Assembly (NCBI GenBank): GCA_021399435.1
Contig: JAJTUP010000129.1
Span: 1-64,000 of the forward strand
Source: Diaporthe sp. PMI_573
Taxonomy: Eukaryota; Ascomycota; Sordariomycetes; Diaporthales; Diaporthaceae
DNA: 64,000 nt
Direction of reading: 5' to 3'
Part shown: piece after piece, positions 3,290-46,283 of the stretch
Position numbering within the stretch: position 1 is the stretch's first letter
Layout of the letters: each line of letters opens with the position of its first letter
Position numbers and translations under genes: made by a program
The notes under the pieces: model-generated
The model's database searches: none
What the model was told of the DNA's origin: nothing
What the model saw: the letters and a program-made list of their open reading frames with translations, nothing else

Positions 3290-3566
3290 AACTATTTTTA
3301 GTCTTTGTAAGCCCCTTGATCTGACCTTTTTGTGCATCGTGGCAGAAAGGGCTGCGTAGGATTGCTGGTGCTGTGCAGGAGGGACTGCCCACATCCACGG
3401 CGCCGACGAGGACGCCACCATGGACACGAACCACAGCGCGACCTCTGCGGCGTCTTCCTTGGCGTTGTTGAGGTTCTTGCCGTTGTACCAGAACCTGGCC
3501 TGATGGATCGTGCCGTTGACGGTCACGCGGCTCGACCAGGCTGTACAACCACCTATCAATTTCAAT
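3290..3566 (-). pseudogene. double-stranded-RNA-binding motif fragment
   Basis: The minus-strand frame contains AWSSRVTVNG, ARFWYNGKNLNNAKEDAAEVAL and then divergent sequence. The pattern W-x-S-x-V-x-V-x-G ... GK-x2-NNAKEDAAE-x-AL is that of a dsRNA-binding motif of small fungal DRBM proteins, with the final alpha-helix NAKEDAAEVAL intact. There is no upstream ATG in frame and nothing recognisable after the motif, so it is a fragment of a larger gene. It lies between hAT subterminal-like repeats and may have been captured or simply stranded. Confidence 0.55.
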
Positions 3567-26968: not shown

Positions 26969-27524
26969 TAGGAGAGGGGGTTTTAAAAGGCAGGAGAGGG
27001 GGTCCTGAAAGGCAGGAGGGGGGGTCCTGAAAGGCAGGAGAGGGGGTCCTGAAAGGCAGGAGGGGGGGTTTTAAAAGGCAGGAGAGGGGGTCCTGAAAGG
27101 CAGGAGGGGGGGTTTTAAAAGGCAGGAGGGGGGGTCCTGAAAGGCAGGAGGGGGGGTTTTAAAAGGCAGGAGGGGGGGTTTTAAAAGGCAGGAGGGGGGG
27201 TTTTAAAAGGCAGGAGGGGGGGTTTTAAAAGGCAGGAGAGGGGGTCCTGAAAGGCAGGAGAGAGGGTCCTGAAAGGCAGGAGGGGGGTTTTAAAAGGCAG
27301 GAGGGGGGGTTTTAAAAGGCAGGAGGGGGGGTTCTGAAAGGCAGGAGAGGGGGTCCTGAGATAGAGGGGTCCTAAAAGGCAGACCCCCTCTCCTACCTTT
27401 TAGAACCCCCCCTCCTGCCTTTTAAAACCCCCTCTCCTGCCTTTTAAAACCCCCCCTCCTGCCTTTTAAAACCCCCCCTCCTGCCTTTTAAAACCCCCCC
27501 TCCTGCCTTTTAAAACCCTCCAGT
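26969..27524. repeat. 22-bp G-rich minisatellite with orientation switch
   Basis: About 18 units of the type GGCAGGAGGGGGGGTTTTAAAA or GGCAGGAGAGGGGGTCCTGAAA run on the plus strand from 26969 to about 27380. The array then flips and about 7 units continue as CCCCCCCTCCTGCCTTTTAAAA on the same strand to 27524. Each unit carries a run of 5-7 G, so the array is a strong candidate for G-quadruplexes on one strand in the first part and on the other in the second, and the two halves can pair as a long hairpin. Confidence 0.95.
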
Positions 27525-33517: not shown

Positions 33518-34403
33518 GGCATCCGTCTTGGGCTTTTGATGGTGAGCCGTTGGTGAGTTCCGTCGTTTGCGGGAAGATGGAGTGAATCAGCAGCAGAAAT
33601 GAGACACATCAGCCAGCCCTTGGACAACACTTTCAGGCTACGTACGAGATCGGCGCTTGATAGACAAGGCAAATCAACCCCGCAGTCGGTACTGCATCGG
33701 CTGAAGACGATAGCTGCGCGTGCCTACGCTACTTGGGCTCGAAAGACAGCTAGACGTCTAGGTCTCCCGCACTATGAGAAGAGCCAAACTTACACTCGGC
33801 TCGTGCATTTCGCTTACGTGCGACTTGGAGAGTTCACCGTCCCATTTTGACGGACGGTACTGGTACCGGTCCCATCACGCGCAGAATCTTCTGGGTGGCT
33901 GCGGCGGCGTCGCATCCGTCCGTACTAGTGGCGACCTGAGCGAGCCTGTCTGCCTTCATCCCGGCGATAACCGCTTGAGGGTCGAAGCTATGCCGCTATT
34001 GCAGCTTGCGACTCGCCGTGCTGCAAAGATTTTTCGGGCATTGACGGCTCAGGGACAGATGGGCCCGCCTCCACTTGCGACAATTTCCACATGAGGCCAG
34101 CCACGTTTAACGAAAAGCATGTGGATCTCGACCAGCGTGTCGCGACGCTATTCGGTGGAATTTACCAAGGGCTGAACATGTGGTTACAATTGGGCTTGCA
34201 CGATCGCCGTGGCTTCCAATCATGCTATTTACTGGGCTGTGCCATGCCTAATGAGTGAAATATATCCTGGTGAGCATTTGAGACCGTTCTCTGCGGTGGT
34301 CCCGGGGCTGTGCTGCGTGCAGCTCGTCCCTCCAACTCACTCTCCTGCACGCAGCCCAGTGAGAGTCCGTCTACTCCACACTCGTTGCACAACCCGTCCA
34401 TCC
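33518..34403. other. intergenic, nothing recognised
   Basis: Likely shared upstream region of the gene at 32177-33517 and the array gene. No family signature in either strand. Confidence 0.35.
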
Positions 34404-34409
34404 TATAAA
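34404..34409 (+). promoter_or_regulatory. TATA box ahead of the micro-exon array
   Basis: TATAAA occurs in TCCTATAAAGAG. The first ATG downstream on this strand is at 34525, 116 bases on, and there is no intervening ATG. Confidence 0.45.
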
Positions 34410-34524
34410 GAGCGTGACGGAAGGACATCTTTGCACAAGCCAGCTTCATCGAGAAACGCTGTCCTAGTTGTGCCTATTGCACGCAACCAGATTCACGGAA
34501 GGTCTTGCAGAGATTTCCGCGCAT

Positions 34525-37500
34525 ATGGACACTACGAACACAAGGAAGGAAAACATATATTTTCCGGTGAGTTCTCTGGTGCGTTGAGAACCGAATGACA
34601 ATTGTTGCTAACTGGGTCCTTTCCTTGATGTAGGCTGTAAGTGACTAAGACGAGCAGAGGGATGATTGCTGACCCAGTTTTGTTCATGGCTGTAGGAAGT
34701 AAGTGAAGCTATACAGACGAGACCGAGAGATGATTGCTGACCCAGCTCTGTCCATGGCTATAGCGTGTAAGTGAAGCTATGCAGACGAGACAAAGGGATG
34801 ACTGCTGATCCAGCTCTGTTCATTTCTGTAGGACGTAAGTGAAGCTATGCAGACGAGACAAAGGGATGACTGCTGACCTAGTTCTGCTCATGGCTGTAGT
34901 GGGTAAGTGAAGCTATGCTGATGAGACCGAGAGATGACTGCTGACCTAGTTCTGTTCATGGCTGTAGGAAGTAAGTGAAGCTATACACACAAGACAGAGG
35001 GATGATTGCTGATCCAGCTCTGTTTATGGCTGTAGGAAGTAAGTGAAGCTATGCAGCCGAGATAGGGATGACTGCTGACCTAGTTCTGTTCATGGCTGTA
35101 GGAAGTAAGTGAAGCTATGCAGACAAGGCAAAGGGATGATTGCTGACCTAGTTCTGTTCATGGCTGTAGTGGGTAAGTGAAGCTATGCAGATGAGACAGA
35201 GGGATGACTGCTGATCCAGCTCTGTTCATGGCTGTAGCGTGTAAGTGAAGCTATGCAGACAAGGCAAAGGGATGATTGCTGACCTAGTTCTGTTCATGGC
35301 TGTAGCGTGTAAGTGAAGCTATGCAGACGAGACCGAGAGATGACTGCTGACCTAGTTCTGTTCATGGCTGTAGTGGGTAAGTGAAGCTATGCAGACAAGG
35401 CAAAGGGATGATTGCTGACCTAGTTCTGTTCATGGCTGTAGCTTGTAAGTGAAGCTATGCAGATGAGACAAAGGGATGATTGCTGACCTAGTTCTGCTCA
35501 TGGCTGTAGCGGGTAAGTGAAGCTATACACACAAGACAGAGGGATGATTGCTGATCCAGCTCTGTTTATGGCTGTAGGACGTAAGTAAAGCTATGCGAAC
35601 GAGACCGAGAGATGATTGCTGACCCAGTTCTATTCATGGCTGTAGGAAGTAAGTGAAGCTATGCAGATGAGACCGAGAGATGACTGCTAACCTAGTTCTA
35701 TTCATGGCTGTAGAGCGTAAGCAAAGCTATGTAGACGAGACAAAGGGATGACTGCTGACCCAGTTCTGCTCATGGCTGTAGTGGGTAAGTGAAGCTATGC
35801 AGATGAGACCGAGAGATGATTGCTGACCTAGTTCTGTTCATGGCTGTAGCTTGTAAGTGAAGCTATGCAGATGAGACAAAGGGATGATTGCTGACCCAGT
35901 TCTGTTCATTGTTGTAGGAAGTAAGTGAAGCTATATAGACGAGACAAAGGGATGACTGCTGATCCAGCTCTGTTCATTTCTGTAGGAAGTAAGTGAAGCT
36001 ATGCAGATGAGACCGAGAGATGACTGCTGACCCAGTTCTGTTCATGGCTGTAGAGTGTAAGTGAAGCTATACAGACGAGATAGAGGGATGATTGCTGACC
36101 TAGTTCTGTTCATGGCTGTAGGACGTAAGCGAAGCTATGCAGATGAGACAAAGGGATGATTGCTGACCCAGTTCTATTCATGGCTGTAGGACGTAAGTGA
36201 AGCTATGCAGACAAGACAAAGGGATGACTGCTGACCCAGTTCTGTTCATGGCTGTAGGACGTAAGTGAAGCTATACAGACGAGACCGAGAGATGACTGCT
36301 GACCTAGTTCTGTTCATGGCTGTAGGAAGTAAGTGAAGCTATACAAACAAGACAGAGGGATGATTGCTGATCCAGCTCTGTTCACGGCTGTAGCGCGTAA
36401 GTAAAGCTATGCGAACGAGACCGAGAGATGACTGCTGACCCAGTTGCGTTCATGGCTGTAGGAAGTAAGTGAAGCTATGCAGATGAGACCGAGAGATGAT
36501 TGCTGACCTAGTTCTGTTCATGGCTATAGCGAGTAAGTGAAGCTATGCAGATGAGACCGAGAGATGACTGCTGACCCAGTTCTGTTCATGGCTATAGCGT
36601 GTAAGTGAAGCTATGCAGACGAGACCGAGAGATGACTGCTGACCGAGTTCTGCTCATGGCTGTAGTGGGTAAGTGAAGCTATGCAGATGAGACCGAGAGA
36701 TGATTGCTGACCTAGTTCTGTTCATGGCTGTAGCTTGTAAGCGAAGCTATGCAGATGAGACAAAGGGATGATTGCTGACCCAGTTCTGTTCATTGTTGTA
36801 GGACGTAAGCGAAGCTATGCAGATGAGACAAAGGGATGACTGCTGATCCAGCTCTGTTCATTTCTGTAGGAAGTAAGTGAAGCTATACACGAGATAGAGG
36901 GATGATTGCTGACCTAGTTCTGTTCATGGCTGTAGGACGTAAGCGAAGCTATGCAGACGAGACAAAGGGATGATTGCTGACCCAGTTCTGTTCATGGCTG
37001 TAGCGTGTAAGCAAAGCTATGCAGACGAGACAAAGGGATGACTGCTGACCTAGTTCTGCTCATGGCTGTAGTGGGTAAGTGAAGCTATGCAGATGAGACC
37101 GAGAGATGACTGCTGACCTAGTTCTGTTCATGGCTGTAGCTTGTAAGTGAAGCTATGCAGACGAGATAGGGATGACTGCTGACCCAGTTCTGTTCATGGC
37201 TGTAGAAAGTAAGTGAAGCTATGCAGACAAGATAGATGGATGATTGCTGACCCAGTTCTGTTCATGGCTGTAGGAAGTAAGTGAAGCTATACAAACAAGA
37301 CAGAGGGATGATTGCTGATCCAGCTCTGTTTATGGCTGTAGGAAGTAAGTGAAGCTATACAAATGAGATAGAGGGATGATTGCTGACCTAGTTCTGTTTA
37401 TGGCTGTAGCTTGTAAGCAAAGCTATGCAGATGAGACCGAGAGATGATTGCTGACCCAGTTGCGTTTATGGCTGTAGGATGTAAGTGAAGCTATGCAGAC

Positions 37501-40132
37501 GAGACAAAGAGATGATTGCTGACCCAGTTCTATTCATGGCTGTAGGACGTAAGTGAAGCTATGTAGACGAGACAAAGGGATGATTGCTGACCCAGTTCTA
37601 TTCATGGCTGTAGTGGGTAAGTGAAGCTATGCAGATGAGACCGAGAGATGACTGCTGACCTAGTTCTGTTCATGGCTGTAGAAAGTAAGTGAAGCTATGC
37701 AGATGAGACCGAGAGATGACTGCTGACCTAGTTCTGTTCATGGCTGTAGAAAGTAAGTGAAGCTATGCAGATGAGACAAAGGGATGATTGCTGACCCAGT
37801 TCTATTCATGGCTGTAGGACGTAAGTGAAGCTATGCAGATGAGACCGAGAGATGACTGCTGACCCAGTTCTGTTTATGGCTATAGCGTGTAAGTGAAGCT
37901 ATGCAGACGAGACTGAGGGATGACTGCTGACCTAGTTCTGTTCATGGCTGTAGGCTGTAAGTGAAGCTATGCAGACGAGACCGAGAGATGAATGCTGACC
38001 CAGCTCCGTTCATGGCTGTAGCTTGTAAGTGAAGCGATGCAGACGAGACCGAGAGGGAGCGCCATCATTGCTGACCCAGTTTGTGCACCCTGGTAGATGG
38101 TGAGCTATCCCCGTGTCAACTGTCATTTTGTCAATTATCTGTCGTTGGACTGACCAAAACCAAGGATTTGTCTAGTCCGTGGAAGTACCCCGTGGACAAT
38201 CAATTCGCCAAACCCTTTGTCGAGAGCATTCCGCCACCGGATCGTCTCTCTCCATATTCATCCTCTTCGGAACTATGTGATCGCTGCTGCACTGTCGATC
38301 TCAGAAAGCCGATCAGTCTGTCTGACTTACGAGAGACAACGAGGTCTTGTGACCTCTGCAGAATGCTTTCTCAACGCTTTCGGCAACGCAAGGGAGAGCT
38401 CAAGCTCCTCGACCATCGGTCCGGCCTCAGGATATGCGCTGATCCAGGTTCGTGAATACTGCCTCGGATTTAACACAAACGACTCGGCTGATTGCCTTTT
38501 CATAGAAACCCAAACCGCGGACAGTGAGATCCAAATCGGGTTTCCCGTATTACCAGAGTCAGGGGGTCCCATTCACTTCGAATTGATACGTGCATGGCTT
38601 CGAGACTGCGACAAAGACCCCCTTTGTCGCGGCAAATCCAGTGCGAGACTGCCCACCAGAGTCCTTGATGTGGGATTTGACAAAACCTCTGATACCGTGA
38701 AGCTTCATATTTCAAAGCTGGACGAGCCGGGAAAGCCGGAGTACATTGCGCTGTCCCATTGCTGGGGCAACTTGACTAAGCAAGAGAAAGACAAGATATC
38801 TACATCCCACGACAATTGGAAGTCCCGGGAACAAGGTTTCGACATGAAAGAATTGCCACAAACATTTCAAGATGCGATCATAATAACTCGAGAGCTGGGC
38901 AAGCAGTACCTCTGGATTGATGCAATTTGCATAATCCAAGCGGATAACGATGACTGGGCAAGAGAGTCTAAGCTGATGGAAACGGTCTTTGAGAATGCTT
39001 ATTGCACGATTGCTGCTACCTCAGCTGAAAACTCCACGACAGGATTTCTTACGCGGCCGCCTGAGCAGCACGAGTATGTCAGGGTGCCGTCGTCCTCGCA
39101 TGGTCCGGTATACGTTTGTGCAGATATCGATCAGTTTGACGCCGACGTGGAGAACGGTCCCTTGAACCAGCGAGCGTGGGTCTTACAAGAAAGAGCCTTG
39201 TCCCGGCGAACGATTCATTTCGCAGCAAGCCAGATATACTGGGAATGTGGTCATGGGATACGTTGCGAAACGCTGACTCAGATGCGCAAGTAAGTATGCT
39301 CGACCTCAGTCTAGTTCCTTCGGAACAAAGAAGTATTTGGCCATTCCTTCCCCCTTGTTATTCTAAGCTGTATTGTTACACAACACGATGAGCGGATCGC
39401 TAACTTTCTGACCCTAGCACAAAAGCGCTCTTTTTGAGCGACCCGAAGTTCCCCGAATCTCTCTTTCGCCACGGCGATGAAGGCAAAATCCAACTCTTTC
39501 AGTCTCTCTTTATAAGATACACGCATCTCGGTCTTACAGAGCCCACCGACCGGCCCGTCGCGATTTTTGGACTGCAGGAGCGGCTAGTAACGAAGCTTCG
39601 AACGCAAGGCAGACACGGTGTCTTTGAAGATTACCTCCACCGAAGCCTCCTGTGGGAGCGATCTGGGCCTAAAAGGATGAGTCGGATTTTGTACGCAACC
39701 AATCGGAAAGTGCCATCATGGTCCTGGATGGCATACGATGGACAGATCGCCTATATGAAAATTCCATTCAATCAGGTTGAATGGAGCAAAGACATCCTGT
39801 GGCCAGAACAAGCATTGAAGGCTGAAGTGATGGCCTTCCAGCCTTGCAAGATCAAACGGAAGGATGATGAAACATGCGTCATAGAGGATGAGACGGGTAA
39901 TGGTGAAAGAGGGTGGTTGAAATTCGACGGGGCCGATAGCACGGATGTGCGGACGCTTAAGTGTGTTATCGTTGGAAGGGAGAGTAAAAATGCTGGACGG
40001 AAATATTATGTATTGGTTGTTACGCCAATATGCTCCGAAGGATGCAGAACTTTTGAGAGAGTCGGGGTCGGTTCCATTCCGGAGAGGTTCATACTGTTCG
40101 AGAGCAGAAAGGTTGACAGGCGTATCCTTTAA
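34525..40132 (+). CDS. candidate HET gene with an array of one-codon micro-exons
   Basis: Proposed model. Exon 1 is 34525-34566 (14 codons from ATG, ending in phase 0 at a GTGAGT donor). Intron 1 is 34567-34633 with branch site GCTAAC and acceptor TGTAG. Then 51 triplets, each followed by an intron of about 65 nt, run from 34634 to 38024. The last array intron is 38025-38096, then the triplet ATG at 38097-38099. A further 65-nt candidate intron, 38100-38164 (GTGAGC, branch CTGAC, acceptor AAG), joins in phase 0 to the HET exons. All triplets are sense codons in this phase. The AAG acceptor is the weakest point. Alternatives are a one-codon first exon at 38097, or a non-coding satellite beside a HET gene. 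See the separate entries for the array and the HET body. Confidence 0.5.
34634..38096 (+). repeat. 68-bp tandem array of intron-like units (51 variable triplets)
   Basis: About 51 units of typical length 68 bp. Each begins GTAAGTGAAGCTATGCAGA (GTAAG always kept), contains GATGA(C/T)TGCTGA(C/T)C with the fungal branch consensus CTGAC or close variants, and ends TTCATGGCTGTAG. Between the terminal TAG and the next GTAAG sits one triplet. The triplets differ from unit to unit while both splice borders are nearly invariant. Thirteen different triplets are used: GAA, GAC, GAT, CGT, CGG, CGC, CGA, TGG, CTT, AAA, AGC, AGT, GCT. Each unit has a second AG (CCTAG or CCCAG) about 4 bases after the branch site, too close to be the usual acceptor. 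Confidence 0.97.
38165..40132 (+). CDS. HET-domain (heterokaryon incompatibility) protein body
   Basis: Exons 38165-38447, 38506-39289 and 39418-40132 join in frame (introns GTTCGT...TAG, 58 nt, and GTAAGT...TAG with branch GCTAAC, 128 nt), about 593 codons. The N-terminus has paired cysteines ELCDRC and SCDLC as usual ahead of HET domains. The HET domain follows: YIALSHCWG, LPQTFQDAI, YLWIDAICIIQ, ENAYCTIAA, NQRAWVLQERALSRR and WECG. HET proteins trigger cell death on non-self recognition in filamentous ascomycetes. The first exon's frame is closed by TGA at 38072 and its first in-frame ATG is 38363, inside the cysteine region, so the start must be supplied by an upstream exon. The core appears intact. 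Confidence 0.88.
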
Positions 40133-40578: not shown

Positions 40579-42032
40579 CTAGCCCACAGCCTCGATCATG
40601 TCGTCACCCATCTCCTTCAGCAACCCATCATATTCCTCCAACAGCCCTGCTCTTAGCCATGATCTCACCGTCTGAGTAACAGCAATTGTGCTCGCATCCA
40701 GCCGGTGTCGTCTAGGTGAGACCATGCTACCAGCAGAGGAAAACGTCCTCTCACACTCGGCAGCCATTGCGGGAATTGATAAGACGTCGATCGCCATTTT
40801 GGCTACACGAGGATACTCAAACCGCTTAGCAGACCAGTATTCAAGAGGGTTGTCATGCTTTGAATACACATCGTTCTTGGTAGATAACCACCTCTCGAAC
40901 TCATCTTCAAGGAGCTCATGTCCATGGTTTGTACTGGACATAAGCTCGTCCTGGAATGAATCAAACGGATTGTACTCTCGCGCCCTCACAGCTTCGGGAA
41001 GATTGCTGTTTGCAATCTCCCACTGTGCAGGAAGGTCGCGATACTCCTCATCCCACAGCGTTTGGACAAGCTGCCGAGCCGTACGCAGCCAGTCCTCCTT
41101 TCCGCCGTACGCCTTCGTCAAGAATGCCCATTGTATTCCGGGATGAAGAACCGTGGCCGCATAATATATCGGCGTCTCGTCAAGTTTCGTGTAGTACTTG
41201 TTGAGCTTAGCCCAAGCAGAGTTGATGCAGGAGGCATAGTAGTTGGGTTCTGGCCGACCTATAGCCTCGATCTTCGCTTTCTCGAGCGTCGTAAGAAGGA
41301 ATTCGTAGGCAACAGCTACCTGCCAGATGCTCCCGTACTGTGCCTCGATTCCTCCCTTACGGACCCGGGTTTGGCCATCCCCTTCAAGCCGCAAAAGACA
41401 AGATTCGAATATGCTGAGAATATCCTTAAACCAATTCAGTGCATCCCAATCCGCATCGGAGAGGAGATTTGCTTGCTCGAGACACGGAGGAAGCGAGCTG
41501 CGCAGCTCCGTCGATTTCGGTCGAGCCCGTGAAAACTTTTTGCCCGACTGTATGGTTATGTCGATAAGCTCTTCGAGGTAGCGGCGGAGCTTGATAGCTC
41601 GCTCAATCATGTAATATTGCGAGAGCCAACGCGTACTGTTATCGAGAACTGCGTCAAGAGTACCGGGATAGCTCTTGTCAGGATCTTGCGCAGAATAGAA
41701 GTGGCCTTGTTTGATCGATGGACCCAAACTACAAGGTTGTGTAGTTTTCCAACTGGACCTCTCTTCGTCCACTCGCTGAAGTCATCCGGATCAAGGTCCT
41801 CGAGAGTATCTTCATCGTTGACAAAGAGCATGGCCTTCGCAACAAGGTAGAGCTAGCCCAGTGCGAGTCGAGAGGATCCATTGGCTCCGGACAGAGTCGG
41901 ATACTGTGTCCCAATCTTTCGTCGTCGCAGAACAGCTAGATGACGACGGTAGCGTGGGTGTGCTTGACTGGCTAGACATCTCTGAGGAGTTGTAAGTGTC
42001 GGGTGAAGGCCCGAAAATGTCGGCTTGCGACG
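40579..42032 (-). pseudogene. hAT transposase, internally deleted and frameshifted
   Basis: The minus-strand ATG at 42032 opens MASQADIFGPSPDTYNSSEM, a Ser/Thr-rich N-terminus as in full-length fungal hAT proteins. After about 50 codons the sequence jumps to AKAMLFVNDEDTLEDLD and GPVGKLHNLVVWVHRS, so the BED finger and first catalytic Asp are deleted. At about 41715 a shift moves to IKQGHFYSAQDPDKSYPGTLDAVLDNSTRW, then an uninterrupted run to the stop includes YGSIWQVAVAYEFLL, YYAATVLHPGIQWAF, EYWSAKRFEYPRVAKMA and the dimerisation block AAECERTFSSAGSMVSPRRHRLD. It cannot encode a working enzyme but retains coding sequence near both ends, like a precursor of a non-autonomous element. Confidence 0.88.
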
Positions 42033-42322: not shown

Positions 42323-45300
42323 TTAGTGTGCCTGAGGCTTCTGGTCCATATCAAGCCTCCCCGTTGCAATGGCAAATTTGATCGTCGCCCGTACTGCCCG
42401 CATGTCTGGTGTCCATTTGTCACCGTCAGACGCCGCCTTTCCCCCCAGGAAGTATGATAGGTTTCCCATCTTTGCCTGTGAGCATCGCAACATGCCTTCC
42501 CGTTGCGCGGTCCATTTTGCACAGCGGAATAGGAAGTGTTCCACTGTCTCTGATGCTAGCCCGCATTCGCAAGTGTCCGATTCCACCGTTCCTATCTTGC
42601 ATAGAAAGCTGTTAAGTCTCACCATTCCGGTGCGGAGCTGTGATAGTACGTCTGCTTCCTTCCTCTTCAGCGGGTCATATAGAGTACGGGTATGCTTGCC
42701 TGGCAGTGCCGTATCTATCTGCTTCGAGCATTTCCCGACTCTTTCTGGTAGTGTTCTTGTTTGCCGCTGCTTGGTTATCGCTAGTCTTATCCTTGTGGAT
42801 CTTGCTAGATGTGGTGGCACATCTGGTCTGCATTCTCCTTCTGTGGCCTTCCGCGCTGCTGCTTTGGCTTTTGGTCCCAGCGCAAAATCCTCTTCTCCTG
42901 CTGGAACCCACAACATCCGGAGAGAGTGGCCCTCGTCTTCGAGACGCTTCATATGGTCGTATATTTGCCGTATGATCTGTTGGCCGGATTGTTGTCGTGG
43001 CCGCCGTATGGCTTCTAGTGCGGAGCGGCTGCTCGTCATGACAGTCACATCCCGCCAGCAGAGTCCAGACGGCATACATCTCAATACCATCTCTATAGCT
43101 CCCAACTCGGCGATGTATAGGTTCAGCTCCTCCGTCAACCCGAGAGTGATGGAGTAGCTGGCCACTACCTCGTCATCTTTGTTGATCGCCGTATCTCGTA
43201 CGACACCTCCCATGCCTACCATGCCCCTTCTCTGCGAGGAGCAGGTGGCAATAACTATGCCATCCACCCTCTTTGCTTCTTCCACCGCTCTCTCCCGGTC
43301 AGGGTCGCACGACACCGGGATACGGTTCCTCCATGGCGGTAACGCGTACTCCCGAATGATCTCCATTCGTTCAGTGGCTGTTTCCCCTTGTACTTGAGCA
43401 ATCCTCTGCATCGGCGATACGAATCGGCGACACACTTTCACTTTCAGTGTCGCCAACGGGTGTGTCCTGGGAAGGGTCCGGAGGTTGATCCAAAACCTTG
43501 TTGCCGCTTGCGCATGCCGTTCTTGCACCGGTTGGATGCTAGCTTCGGCCTCTGCCACCGCCGTTGCGACGGTCCGGAAAGCCCCCGTGATCGCCTGTGC
43601 TCCGACCATCTGTGCCTTGTCCAGCCAAGCAGCTTCTCTGATGCCACATGAGTGCGCCCACACGCTGGACGCATAGTCCATGGTGGGAGCTACTGTTGCT
43701 ACGAACAGTTGTCTCGCAGTCCGCGGTGACAGCATCTTCAGTCTTCTCAGACACATAGCAGCCGAGAGCCCCTTTGCGGCGGCTCTAGCTATGTGTTCCT
43801 TGTACCGCAGTTTCGCGTCCATGACCACTCCCAGGATCTTGGCGCTCGCCTTGGGCTTGACTACTTTTCCTTTGATCATGAACGCTTTGTCGCTGGTACG
43901 CGCGGCGTTTCGCGTGAAATGCACGATGGTCGTCTTGTCTCCGTTGAACGTCGCACCGCTCCGTCTTTCCCAGCCCAGTGCTTCGTCTATAATTGATTGG
44001 ATGCCGGCTCGATTCTCCTCCGCTGTTGGTCCCACCACCCAGGCTGAGTAGTCGTCCACGAATGCCATCGAACCACCTCTTGCGTTGATTCTTCTCTGCA
44101 CCAAATCTGCATTGAAGAACAGGAACAACACCGGCGACAGTGGTGATCCTTGCGGGAGACCTGCCTGTGGCAACTCCCGTAGCTGTGACTTGTACCCATT
44201 TACCACCACGGTGGCCATGCGTCCAGAGCAGAAGGCGTCAATCCATCTCAGCAGTCCACCAGGTATGCCTCTCGCCTTCAGCCTCTCCAGTAGTCGTTCT
44301 TTGAACACTCCGTTGTAAGCACCCTTGACGTCGAAACTGATCAGACTGAGCACCCTGCCGGCCCTCCATGCCTTGTAGATCTGCTCCTGCAGCAGTATCA
44401 GTGCTTGTTCGGCTGACCTTCGCTTCCTTGCCCCGAAGTGGTTTGCAGGCAGCAGTCCATAGCTTTCCACTACATAGGATACCCGCTCTGCAACGGCTGC
44501 CTCGAGTATCTTGCCCAGTGTTGACAGCAGGGATATCGGTCTCCATGCCTTGGCCACTGTGTAGTCTCCCTTGTCTGCTTTCTTTAGCGGGATGATCTTC
44601 GCACTCCTCCACTGGTGGGGTACCACACCGTCCCTGAGGGAAGTGTCGAAAAGGTGCAAGACACGGTATCTAACCACTGGCCAAAGCTGTTTCCACACCA
44701 TTGCTGGCAGACCATCCTCTCCAGGTGCTTTCCAAGGTTTCGCTGCTAGCACTTTTTCTTCAACTTCCTCCATGGTGAGGTCTGGCATGTGCACTTCCGT
44801 CCGTTGCGGTCGCTCGCCTTCATCGTCAATCTTAGCCGGCAACGGGGGGAAGAACGTGCTGAGCAGCTCCTCTGCCTGCTCCACCGTATCTTCCGTGGTG
44901 GAACCGTCTTCCCTCTTCAGAGGGGGCACCCTGTCGTCCATAACACCTGTTTCTGGTTTTAAGTACTTGGCCGCCTTCCATATGTTGACATCTTCTGCCA
45001 GGAAGTCGTCCCAGTGCAGTTTTTTCTGTTTCCGGATGGCATCATGGTACTCCTTGGATGCTTCCTTGGCCCGTCTTTCCAGGTCGGGCCTCACTTGGCC
45101 TGCTCGCCGTTGTGCCCTGGCCTGATTTCGCCAGAATGTGTACACCCGCCGAAGTCCTGTCAAATCCTTCGTCCACCAGCGCTTCGCGTACGGTACTGGT
45201 TGTGCTCGGGGTGTCAGATCGTGGATCGCCTCGAGGACGACCCTCATTAACTGGTCTGTCTGCTCCTGCACACCGACAGTCCAGGGGAGCTCTCGGAGAT

Positions 45301-46102
45301 TTTTCTTCACCCTGGTTCTGATTGTTGTCCATGGTGCGTTCTTGAACGACAGTCTTTCCGTGACAATCCGATCAGGCATCGCGAGATCGAACGTCGTTTG
45401 GATCGCCCGGTGGTCCGATCCGTGTTCTGTCGGGTGTATGGAGCACGTCACCATTTCGTCTGCCAGTTTTGCCGTCGCCAGCATCAGGTCGATTGTGCTT
45501 TCCTTGTCGGGGCCTTGCCATGTCTTTGTGCCTCTCGGGAGGAGGCTGCATAGGCCGTGCTCGTTCATGACGTCGATAATCGGTTCGGCCTCGCCTTGCC
45601 TTGCCAAGGCCACGTCGTCTCCTCCCCATAGCCGGTCGTGCTGATTAAAATCTCCGGCCAGAATGACGTCCACCGCCATCCCTGACCTGCTCCTGAGGTC
45701 GAGGATCACCTGGTGCAGGGTATGGCATGTATTTCGAAGAGCCTGGGGCTTGCGTCCCGGCACATACACTGACACAACCAACATTATTCGGTCCGGAAGT
45801 CGTATGGCTGCTGCTGTCAAGTCCGAGGACTGTATTGGTACTTGGTCGGCCCCCAAGTCCCTATTCACCCACAACATGCTCCGGATCGGCCATCTGCCAT
45901 CTCTCCAAATCGTAGGGACCATTTTAATCCATCTGGGATGCCCCATAGGGACTGTTAATAGTTTGCCGTCACTTTTCCATGCCTGTGGTTCTTGGACTGC
46001 CACAACTGCAAAATCCTGGAGTCGCGTATCGTTCATTAGGCTCTCGTGTACCGTGTCCTGTTTTCTTACATTCAGTTGGATGACCTGGAATATTCTACTC
46101 AT
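42323..46102 (-). CDS. LINE ORF2: endonuclease, reverse transcriptase, RNase H
   Basis: The ATG at 46102 (MSRIFQVIQLNVRKQD) starts a 1259-aa uninterrupted protein. I prefer it to the longer frame because it begins at the usual start of the apurinic-type endonuclease. Endonuclease motifs AVQEP, LAGDFNQHDRLW and GSDHRAIQ lie in the first 250 residues. The reverse transcriptase has WRPISLLSTLGKILE, SFDVKGAYNGV, GLPQGSPLSPVLF and the active-site box AFVDDYSAW. An RNase H-like region follows, then a Cys-rich C-terminus (CECGLASETVEHFLFRC). All catalytic motifs I can judge are present, so the protein could be functional even though this copy lacks most of ORF1. Confidence 0.92.
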   Translation of the reverse strand: MSRIFQVIQLNVRKQDTVHESLMNDTRLQDFAVVAVQEPQAWKSDGKLLTVPMGHPRWIKMVPTIWRDGRWPIRSMLWVNRDLGADQVPIQSSDLTAAAIRLPDRIMLVVSVYVPGRKPQALRNTCHTLHQVILDLRSRSGMAVDVILAGDFNQHDRLWGGDDVALARQGEAEPIIDVMNEHGLCSLLPRGTKTWQGPDKESTIDLMLATAKLADEMVTCSIHPTEHGSDHRAIQTTFDLAMPDRIVTERLSFKNAPWTTIRTRVKKNLRELPWTVGVQEQTDQLMRVVLEAIHDLTPRAQPVPYAKRWWTKDLTGLRRVYTFWRNQARAQRRAGQVRPDLERRAKEASKEYHDAIRKQKKLHWDDFLAEDVNIWKAAKYLKPETGVMDDRVPPLKREDGSTTEDTVEQAEELLSTFFPPLPAKIDDEGERPQRTEVHMPDLTMEEVEEKVLAAKPWKAPGEDGLPAMVWKQLWPVVRYRVLHLFDTSLRDGVVPHQWRSAKIIPLKKADKGDYTVAKAWRPISLLSTLGKILEAAVAERVSYVVESYGLLPANHFGARKRRSAEQALILLQEQIYKAWRAGRVLSLISFDVKGAYNGVFKERLLERLKARGIPGGLLRWIDAFCSGRMATVVVNGYKSQLRELPQAGLPQGSPLSPVLFLFFNADLVQRRINARGGSMAFVDDYSAWVVGPTAEENRAGIQSIIDEALGWERRSGATFNGDKTTIVHFTRNAARTSDKAFMIKGKVVKPKASAKILGVVMDAKLRYKEHIARAAAKGLSAAMCLRRLKMLSPRTARQLFVATVAPTMDYASSVWAHSCGIREAAWLDKAQMVGAQAITGAFRTVATAVAEAEASIQPVQERHAQAATRFWINLRTLPRTHPLATLKVKVCRRFVSPMQRIAQVQGETATERMEIIREYALPPWRNRIPVSCDPDRERAVEEAKRVDGIVIATCSSQRRGMVGMGGVVRDTAINKDDEVVASYSITLGLTEELNLYIAELGAIEMVLRCMPSGLCWRDVTVMTSSRSALEAIRRPRQQSGQQIIRQIYDHMKRLEDEGHSLRMLWVPAGEEDFALGPKAKAAARKATEGECRPDVPPHLARSTRIRLAITKQRQTRTLPERVGKCSKQIDTALPGKHTRTLYDPLKRKEADVLSQLRTGMVRLNSFLCKIGTVESDTCECGLASETVEHFLFRCAKWTAQREGMLRCSQAKMGNLSYFLGGKAASDGDKWTPDMRAVRATIKFAIATGRLDMDQKPQAH

Positions 46103-46283
46103 GCCGAGTAGGGTAGAGTTTCGGGCAGCTGCGACTGAACGACTCGTGCGGTCCACCACAGGGTACGCACTTGCGTACCTGCGTCTGGCACTCACTATGA
46201 TGGTGGTCTTCGGCAGCGCACCTCGCACATACCCGATTCTTGCTGCACGAGAAAGCCTTGTGGCCGAGCTCCTTTGTCAATTA
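46095..46283 (-). pseudogene. LINE ORF1 3' end with CCHC knuckles
   Basis: About 60 codons remain: LGHKAFSC, VCARCAAEDHHHSEC and CVPCGGPHESFSRSC are three zinc knuckles of a Gag-like nucleic-acid-binding protein. Its stop overlaps the ORF2 start as CATGAGTAG, where ORF1 reads CAT GAG TAG and ORF2 reads ATG AGT AGA. Such an overlap is compatible with termination-reinitiation for ORF2. The 5' portion is missing. Confidence 0.85.

Follow-up and report, generated by a model that had tools for sequence, protein, structure and literature searches.

A tandem array of putative single-codon exons in the 5′ part of a HET-domain gene of Diaporthe sp. PMI_573

The window, a 64,000-nucleotide stretch of contig JAJTUP010000129.1 from Diaporthe sp. 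PMI_573 (GCA_021399435.1, as a published table also lists this strain, PMC12526002), carries on its forward strand a HET-domain gene whose 5′ part is predicted to contain an array of exons of one codon each. The features of this gene model are as follows.

34404..34409, forward strand: candidate core promoter TATAAA, from sequence
34525..34566, forward strand: exon 1, 14 codons, MDTTNTRKENIYFP, phase 0
34567..34633, forward strand: intron 1, 67 nt, outside the repeat family
34634..38024, forward strand: predicted array of 51 single-codon exons and 50 tandem introns (59–65 nt), AERDWEEEWRRWLRDESWLEESDDDERERRWLDEDRWLKEELDDWKKDRAL
38025..38096, forward strand: intron 52, the diverged last unit
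38097..38099, forward strand: 52nd putative single-codon exon (ATG); alternatively a start codon with an intron directly after it
38100..38164, forward strand: intron 53 (GTGAGC ... CTGAC ... CCAAG)
38165..38447, forward strand: HET gene exon with a conserved W...DN.F motif and Cys pairs
38506..39289, forward strand: HET gene exon with the HET domain (PF06985), E 2.1e-33
39418..40132, forward strand: final HET gene exon, ending at the stop

The PF06985 match scores 116.2 bits against a curated cut-off of 22.5, which identifies the product as a HET-domain protein. HET is the only domain found (two exon ORFs were searched, with HET in one and no domain in the other, and the Pfam annotation of the public protein P0001 gives PF06985), and the same sources gave neither a NACHT nor an ankyrin domain. 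Immediately 3′ of the gene lies a hAT transposase C-terminal dimerization region (40579-41772, reverse strand) and, also on its 3′ side, an open frame of 1301 aa that encodes endonuclease and reverse transcriptase domains and is, by these, LINE-type (42323-46228, reverse strand). Elsewhere in the window, two arrays of 22-bp units adjoin each other (26970-27359 and 27383-27518), the second apparently the reverse complement of the first when their consensus sequences are compared by eye.

The ATG at 34525 is the only one within 34381-34594 and the first 3′ of the TATAAA (34404), with an in-frame stop on its 5′ side at 34465. From this ATG, the 51 single codons, the 52nd codon (ATG, 38097) and the first codon of the HET part (GAT, 38165) follow in one frame, all in phase 0; none of the 51 triplets is a stop, and every one is flanked by splice signals. 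The sequence places the array in the 5′ part of a HET-domain gene with a continuous frame from ATG 34525. The assembled protein would have 659 residues, 14 from exon 1, 52 from the single codons and 593 from the HET part. The HET frame itself is open from 38075, with a stop upstream at 38072, and its first ATG occurs only at 38363, within the conserved N-terminal part; because it has no ATG from 38072 to 38363, it must be entered through a spliced upstream start. P0001 (‘heterokaryon incompatibility protein-domain-containing protein, partial [Diaporthe sp. PMI_573]’) is identical to the 593-residue HET part and starts at codon 38165, so the public model reaches no further than the border of the single-codon exons. 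When the HET part served as query, 3499 of 8000 scored proteins had E ≤0.001; among the best 120 of the 3499, which were examined, 38 other proteins have a tryptophan aligned to the W motif of the window gene, and this conservation leads us to expect translation to start upstream of 38180. The assembled N-terminus has no annotated homologue in the protein search, and a search with the region matched P0001 only.

The array comprises 51 AG-N3-GT junctions (34634-38024), whose 50 spacings are 68 bp except for one of 62 bp and three of 66 bp, and TRF independently returned a period of 68 bp with 50.2 copies. About 51 single codons between tandem introns had been proposed by the first-pass annotation, and this count is borne out. 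The array that it placed at 34567..38164 is likewise present, but 38164 is the end of the 53rd intron, which is preceded by a 52nd exon (38097-38099). Since the unit lengths of 62, 66 and 68 bp are not all multiples of three, an unspliced reading would shift frame. When columns are ordered by entropy over the 46 units of full 68-bp length, those of the triplet take the first three places (mean 1.74 bits versus 0.26 in the other 65 columns), and the GTAAG donor and the final TAG do not vary, in agreement with the earlier description of the triplet as the most variable part of the unit and of the splice signals as nearly invariant. The mean pairwise difference within the array is about 0.68-0.69 per triplet site versus about 0.11 per intron site. 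Introns identical across 65 nt adjoin differing triplets, one such intron being followed by TGG, CGT or CTT, and the linkage of triplets to neighbouring intron variants is weak (p<0.05 in 8 of 47 columns).

A neutral satellite or minisatellite was rejected as a description of the array, its variation following splice phase instead of spreading regardless of it. Duplication of higher-order blocks was also rejected, the order of units giving 7.0 against a null mean of 6.6, a value reached by 139 of 300 shuffles. The introns gave no Rfam match up to E 1 across 34300-38500, and on this result a snoRNA host array was rejected, which leaves room for an undescribed RNA. Within the array, glutamate is spelled GAA in 12 of 12 cases and lysine AAA in three of three. 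A rule against codons ending in AG (NAGNAG acceptors) was considered and rejected, GAG being used seven times in two paralogous arrays (L022 and L025, see below); because these paralogues use it, the avoidance of AG in the window looks like a founder effect of its array. An amphipathic helix in the 51-residue peptide was rejected, with p 0.15 and 0.21 for the Eisenberg moment taken at 100 degrees, and a W/L/A/M indicator revealed no significant helix periodicity (p 0.53 and 0.45). When the order of residues in the peptide was compared with the N-terminal extensions of 25 homologues, no p was below 0.05 (best P0071, p 0.053), the likeness being one of composition only; these extensions are somewhat more charged than the remaining protein (0.34 versus 0.26).

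The window array is one of a family, which, like its place in a HET gene, had escaped the first-pass annotation. A chain pattern of three GTAAG donors and two TAG-N3 joints matched 119 times in 83.7 Mb, overlaps included, with about 50 of the matches inside the window array, and its reversed control gave none; a narrower version gave 70 matches, again with none for the control, and added further contigs. Together the two patterns identify at least 12 loci (C8, C28, C34, which is the window, C79, C136, C139, two on C153, C161, C163, C183 and C206), and in 10 of the 12 a HET match lies just 3′ of the chain, the exceptions being C139 and C153:521 kb. HET loci were also ranked by a six-frame search with a relative, P0018 of Fusarium oxysporum, in which 70 of 258 candidates were scored. 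Among the matches listed, 21 loci have E below 1e-53, and all of these, the window included, were examined, some as 3-5 kb only. Of these 21, 14 hold runs of at least three single-codon exons according to one script or more, and 11 according to the strictest (the window, L017, L018, L022, L024, L025, L026, L031, L032, L033 and L035); other scripts added L019 and L020 (one script) and L034 (another). Shorter or decayed traces of an array occur in L027, L028, L036, L037 and L038. L030 has no array, its W motif lying inside an ordinary exon, and L029 has none within the stretch examined; L021, L023 and L039 are array fragments with no recognizable HET frame within the stretch examined.

These counts come from scripts of differing stringency. 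Walking backwards from the conserved W exon under strict rules, which were written after the outcome of a looser version had been seen, recovered at least three single-codon exons at 11 of 18 loci. Applied to 3577 other AGs in the same loci (minus L020, L021, L023 and L027), the strict walk found none at 3530, one at 41 and two or more at 6; each of the last 6 sits 52-60 bases into the W exon of an array, which the walk reads a second time. The looser walk found just one single-codon exon in each of L017, L018, L022, L025 and L026, an undercount because its branch-site rule missed their last introns; among its 3827 control AGs, 98 had one and 6 had two or more (up to seven). A third script, for which the shuffled maximum was 1.6 (20 shuffles per locus), gave 4.0 for L034, 3.6 for L037, 2.0 for L036, 2.0 for L038, 4.0 for L031, 7.0 for L032 and 5.0 for L033, and 1.0, no better than shuffles, for L035 and L030. 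The scripts disagree on L035 (none by the third script versus three by the strict walk), on L034 (three by the third script, none by the strict walk and a TGA-ending chain by the looser walk) and on L019 (three by one script versus one by the strict walk), and two of them read L032 differently; the exon boundaries in L031-L038 thus rest on consensus and are in places ambiguous.

Exon 1 of the window gene bears a loose likeness to the translated first exons of paralogues (MATADNEKDHGTYIP and MGHNGTDNGKYEA). The first residues of P0018, P0019 and P0056 (Fusarium, Dactylonectria) read EKDHGEY, EKGEY and EENHAGY; these starts resemble the first exon of the Diaporthe paralogues, which suggests that other genera may share the architecture. 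The first codon of the array encodes Glu or Asp in L017, L018, L019, L020, L022, L024, L025 and L026, and is GCT in the window and AAA in the relic L023.

Evidence that single-codon exons are translated comes from the more distant paralogues. In the 500 bp 5′ of the W exon, L031-L038 have no clear mutual DNA similarity over their 28 pairs, the best being L031-L038 (58 bp, 71%, E 0.009). Nevertheless, in seven of these eight loci the single codon next to the W exon encodes proline, the exception being L036 (ACC). By the strict script it is spelled CCA in L031, CCC in L032, CCG in L033, CCT in L035 and CCG in L038; in L034 and L037, where that script finds none, it reads by eye as CCA and CCT. 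One residue in four synonymous spellings argues for selection on the protein, that is, for translation of the single-codon exons. Proteins P0061 and P0081, from other organisms, read TPLDDNW and TPLDDRW at the W-exon junction, which may be compared with P|LDDNW in L033.

The signals of the array fail where the HET frame has stops. L020, with 12 stops along the matched part of HET, lacks both the ATG at the usual start and an acceptor; L027 has 12 stops and lacks one donor. A donor is also missing from L019 and from L028, the latter with a spacer of 4 nt as well, although read-through of introns may account for some of the stops counted in the HET stretches of these two loci. L024 runs against this pattern, its HET frame and array being intact, yet with no ATG at the usual place. 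In L020 and L027, the many HET stops are accompanied by changes towards A/T that by their look resemble repeat-induced point mutation.

These observations bear on the possibility of a HET gene start at ATG 38097, with the array as an upstream satellite or a block of 5′-UTR introns outside the protein. Such a start is compatible with the ATG|GTGAGC there, which comes into frame with HET once spliced to 38165, and with the beginning of P0001 at 38165. It would, however, leave the exact 3-nt spacing, the absence of stops and the excess of triplet variation unexplained. Moreover, single-codon exons lead to the W exon in L017, L018, L022, L025 and L026, and the last array codon there is not ATG but TGG (L017, L018, L025 and L026) or TTA (L022); the proline spellings likewise point to translation. 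We consider a start at 38097 unlikely.

The seven arrays with an open HET frame together contain 133 triplets of 27 kinds and no stops (window 52, L017 11, L018 23, L022 8, L025 16, L026 16 and L024 7), although the lack of stops carries modest weight by itself, the units being copies of one another. In six of these seven, L024 being left out of the comparison, triplets differ far more than introns (intron/triplet: window 0.112/0.693, L018 0.104/0.615, L025 0.120/0.708, L026 0.097/0.558, L017 0.161/0.642 and L022 0.150/0.667). The contrast first seen in the window array thus holds across all six arrays, that one included (0.56-0.71 versus 0.10-0.16). It also appears between near-identical paralogues. 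Identity among L017, L022, L025 and L026 is 96-98.5% upstream (200 bp), 92-100% for intron 1 and 91-96% downstream (1.8 kb), yet their codon strings differ (ESWSSWGRNAW, DELERHRL, EREELPPGWEWERLPW and DHYDRRHYVAYYHYRW, respectively). Between L025 and L026, dS is 0.049 in the HET exon, and divergence is 0.077 in the array introns and 0.668 in the triplets. Over ten pairs, dN/dS of the HET exon ranges from 0.22 to 1.05, low in distant pairs and higher in the closest. With the introns as the neutral reference, and within this one genome, these values suggest positive selection on the codons. A direct case of unit gain or loss is provided by the close paralogues L024 and L019, of which L024 has three more codon–intron units.

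The introns fall into families found, at E ≤0.001, at such loci only. A 91-base stretch of the window gave at least 50 matches in the genome (E ≤0.001), all in the window array, and the unit of the other large family gave at least 83 (E ≤0.001), all in HET-array loci and array relics; on these counts, membership of the introner-like element class was rejected, the intron not occurring in many unrelated genes. A more sensitive comparison of the L024 and window arrays revealed 67.5% identity over 320 bp (E 1.6e-18), which makes the two intron families distant relatives.

It is also improbable that the intron load itself is the function, with dozens of introns throttling or conditioning the expression of a toxic HET protein while the codons drift freely. 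HET domains can indeed cause cell death (PMC4986451, PMC10197012), and long chains would require dozens of splicing steps. Drift, however, predicts codon divergence equal to intron divergence, whereas that of the codons is 4 to 6 times higher (raw pairwise values), and the number of exons ranges from 8 to 16 among close paralogues, with only a few in distant ones. A dispersed introner-like element inserted between successive codons, which would leave old, differing codons between new, agreeing introns, fits the identical introns between different codons and the absence of higher-order blocks, but is very improbable, given that the matches of the units at E ≤0.001 lie only in their own array or in HET-array loci and relics, that close paralogues should share their old codons and do not, and that insertion at every phase-0 codon boundary is hardly to be expected.

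The explanation that we favour, and hold to be probable, is that the array consists of real single-codon exons, joined by stepwise splicing, which give a HET protein a rapidly rewritten N-terminal segment. The core of this reading, that the triplets are one-codon exons, was put forward in the first-pass annotation and gains support from the open frame that runs from ATG through 52 codons into the HET protein, from paralogous arrays that keep their introns around unrelated codons, from the decay of splice signals where the HET frame is broken and from the proline in four synonymous spellings. Each repeat would supply one codon and one short intron to the 5′ half of the gene. The introns may be removed one by one in the 5′-to-3′ direction, in a manner resembling recursive splicing, zero-nucleotide recursive sites being the known analogue (PMC13149111); after each removal the next donor would already stand at the end of the growing exon, so that a 3-nt exon would never have to be defined alone. 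The near-identical introns would also supply homology for unequal exchange and conversion between units, a mechanism by which units could be gained or lost one codon at a time. As each unit is exactly one phase-0 codon, the peptide could lengthen, shorten or be reshuffled without a frameshift. The earlier proposal that a peptide would be edited one codon at a time as units come, go or are shuffled fits the 8-23 codons of the paralogues. Selection would then favour change in the codons and preserve function in the splice signals.

By analogy with the repeats of fungal NLR/HET proteins, the segment is likely to be a fast-evolving recognition or regulatory part of a cell-death protein. Cell death and incompatibility in fungi are described as processes in which HET domains act, and positive selection as driving change in the repeats of related proteins (PMC4986451, PMC10197012). 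An allorecognition role is known for only a small fraction of HET genes (PMC10197012). More tentatively, alternative splicing of the 52-unit array could generate a very large N-terminal repertoire at the somatic, RNA level, beside germline rewriting between paralogues. We regard this as possible but doubtful; one-codon exons in phase 0 would be individually skippable, and such a repertoire could arise from one gene.

The first-pass statement that no described gene with such an array of one-codon exons was known needs amending. As the citing papers describe them (PMC4986451, PMC10197012, after Iotti et al. 2012), NACHT-ankyrin genes of the truffle Tuber melanosporum owe diversity to 3-bp microexons, one codon in size, that are alternatively spliced. 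Exons as small as a codon are thus already on record for immune-type genes of fungi. Like the Diaporthe genes, they are of fungal STAND/immune type and have multiple 3-bp exons said to diversify the protein, and several 3-nt exons in one gene are likewise predicted from the Diaporthe sequence. The truffle genes, on those descriptions, encode NACHT-ankyrin proteins diversified by alternative splicing, whereas the Diaporthe genes are HET-only, with N-terminal arrays of near-identical introns and up to 52 codons, whose rewriting shows between paralogues.

Other systems share single aspects. Podospora HNWD genes and other fungal NLR genes have homogenized internal repeats, positively selected change at few positions and a link to the HET domain, but there the repeated unit spans tens of residues of protein, whereas the Diaporthe unit is one codon and an intron, and its homogenized part is predicted to leave the mRNA (PMC4986451). 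Introner-like elements of Dothideomycetes are also near-identical introns within one fungal genome, whereas the Diaporthe introns are tandem and found in HET loci and array relics only (PMC4457414). Very small exons are spliced in Fusarium CYP621A (a single-nucleotide exon, PMC12940212) and in Trichoderma Xlr2 (a microexon, PMC11121469), where they are single and do not form arrays. Schistosome micro-exon genes have many short exons, but these are described as 3-81 bp, not one codon each, with introns of up to 5 kb and secreted products (PMC10526429). In the open-licence papers that our searches listed, we found no description of single-codon arrays in HET genes, of tandem near-identical introns in such a setting, of runs of dozens of single codons or of wholesale codon replacement between near-identical paralogues.

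If the favoured reading is true, tens of consecutive one-codon exons would vary a protein, an extreme of exon structure. The array may also explain the truncated public annotation of the HET gene. It belongs with the HET genes, and how these diversify is an open question according to a recent review (PMC10197012). The array would offer a candidate recognition segment that is easily compared between strains, by counting units and reading triplets.
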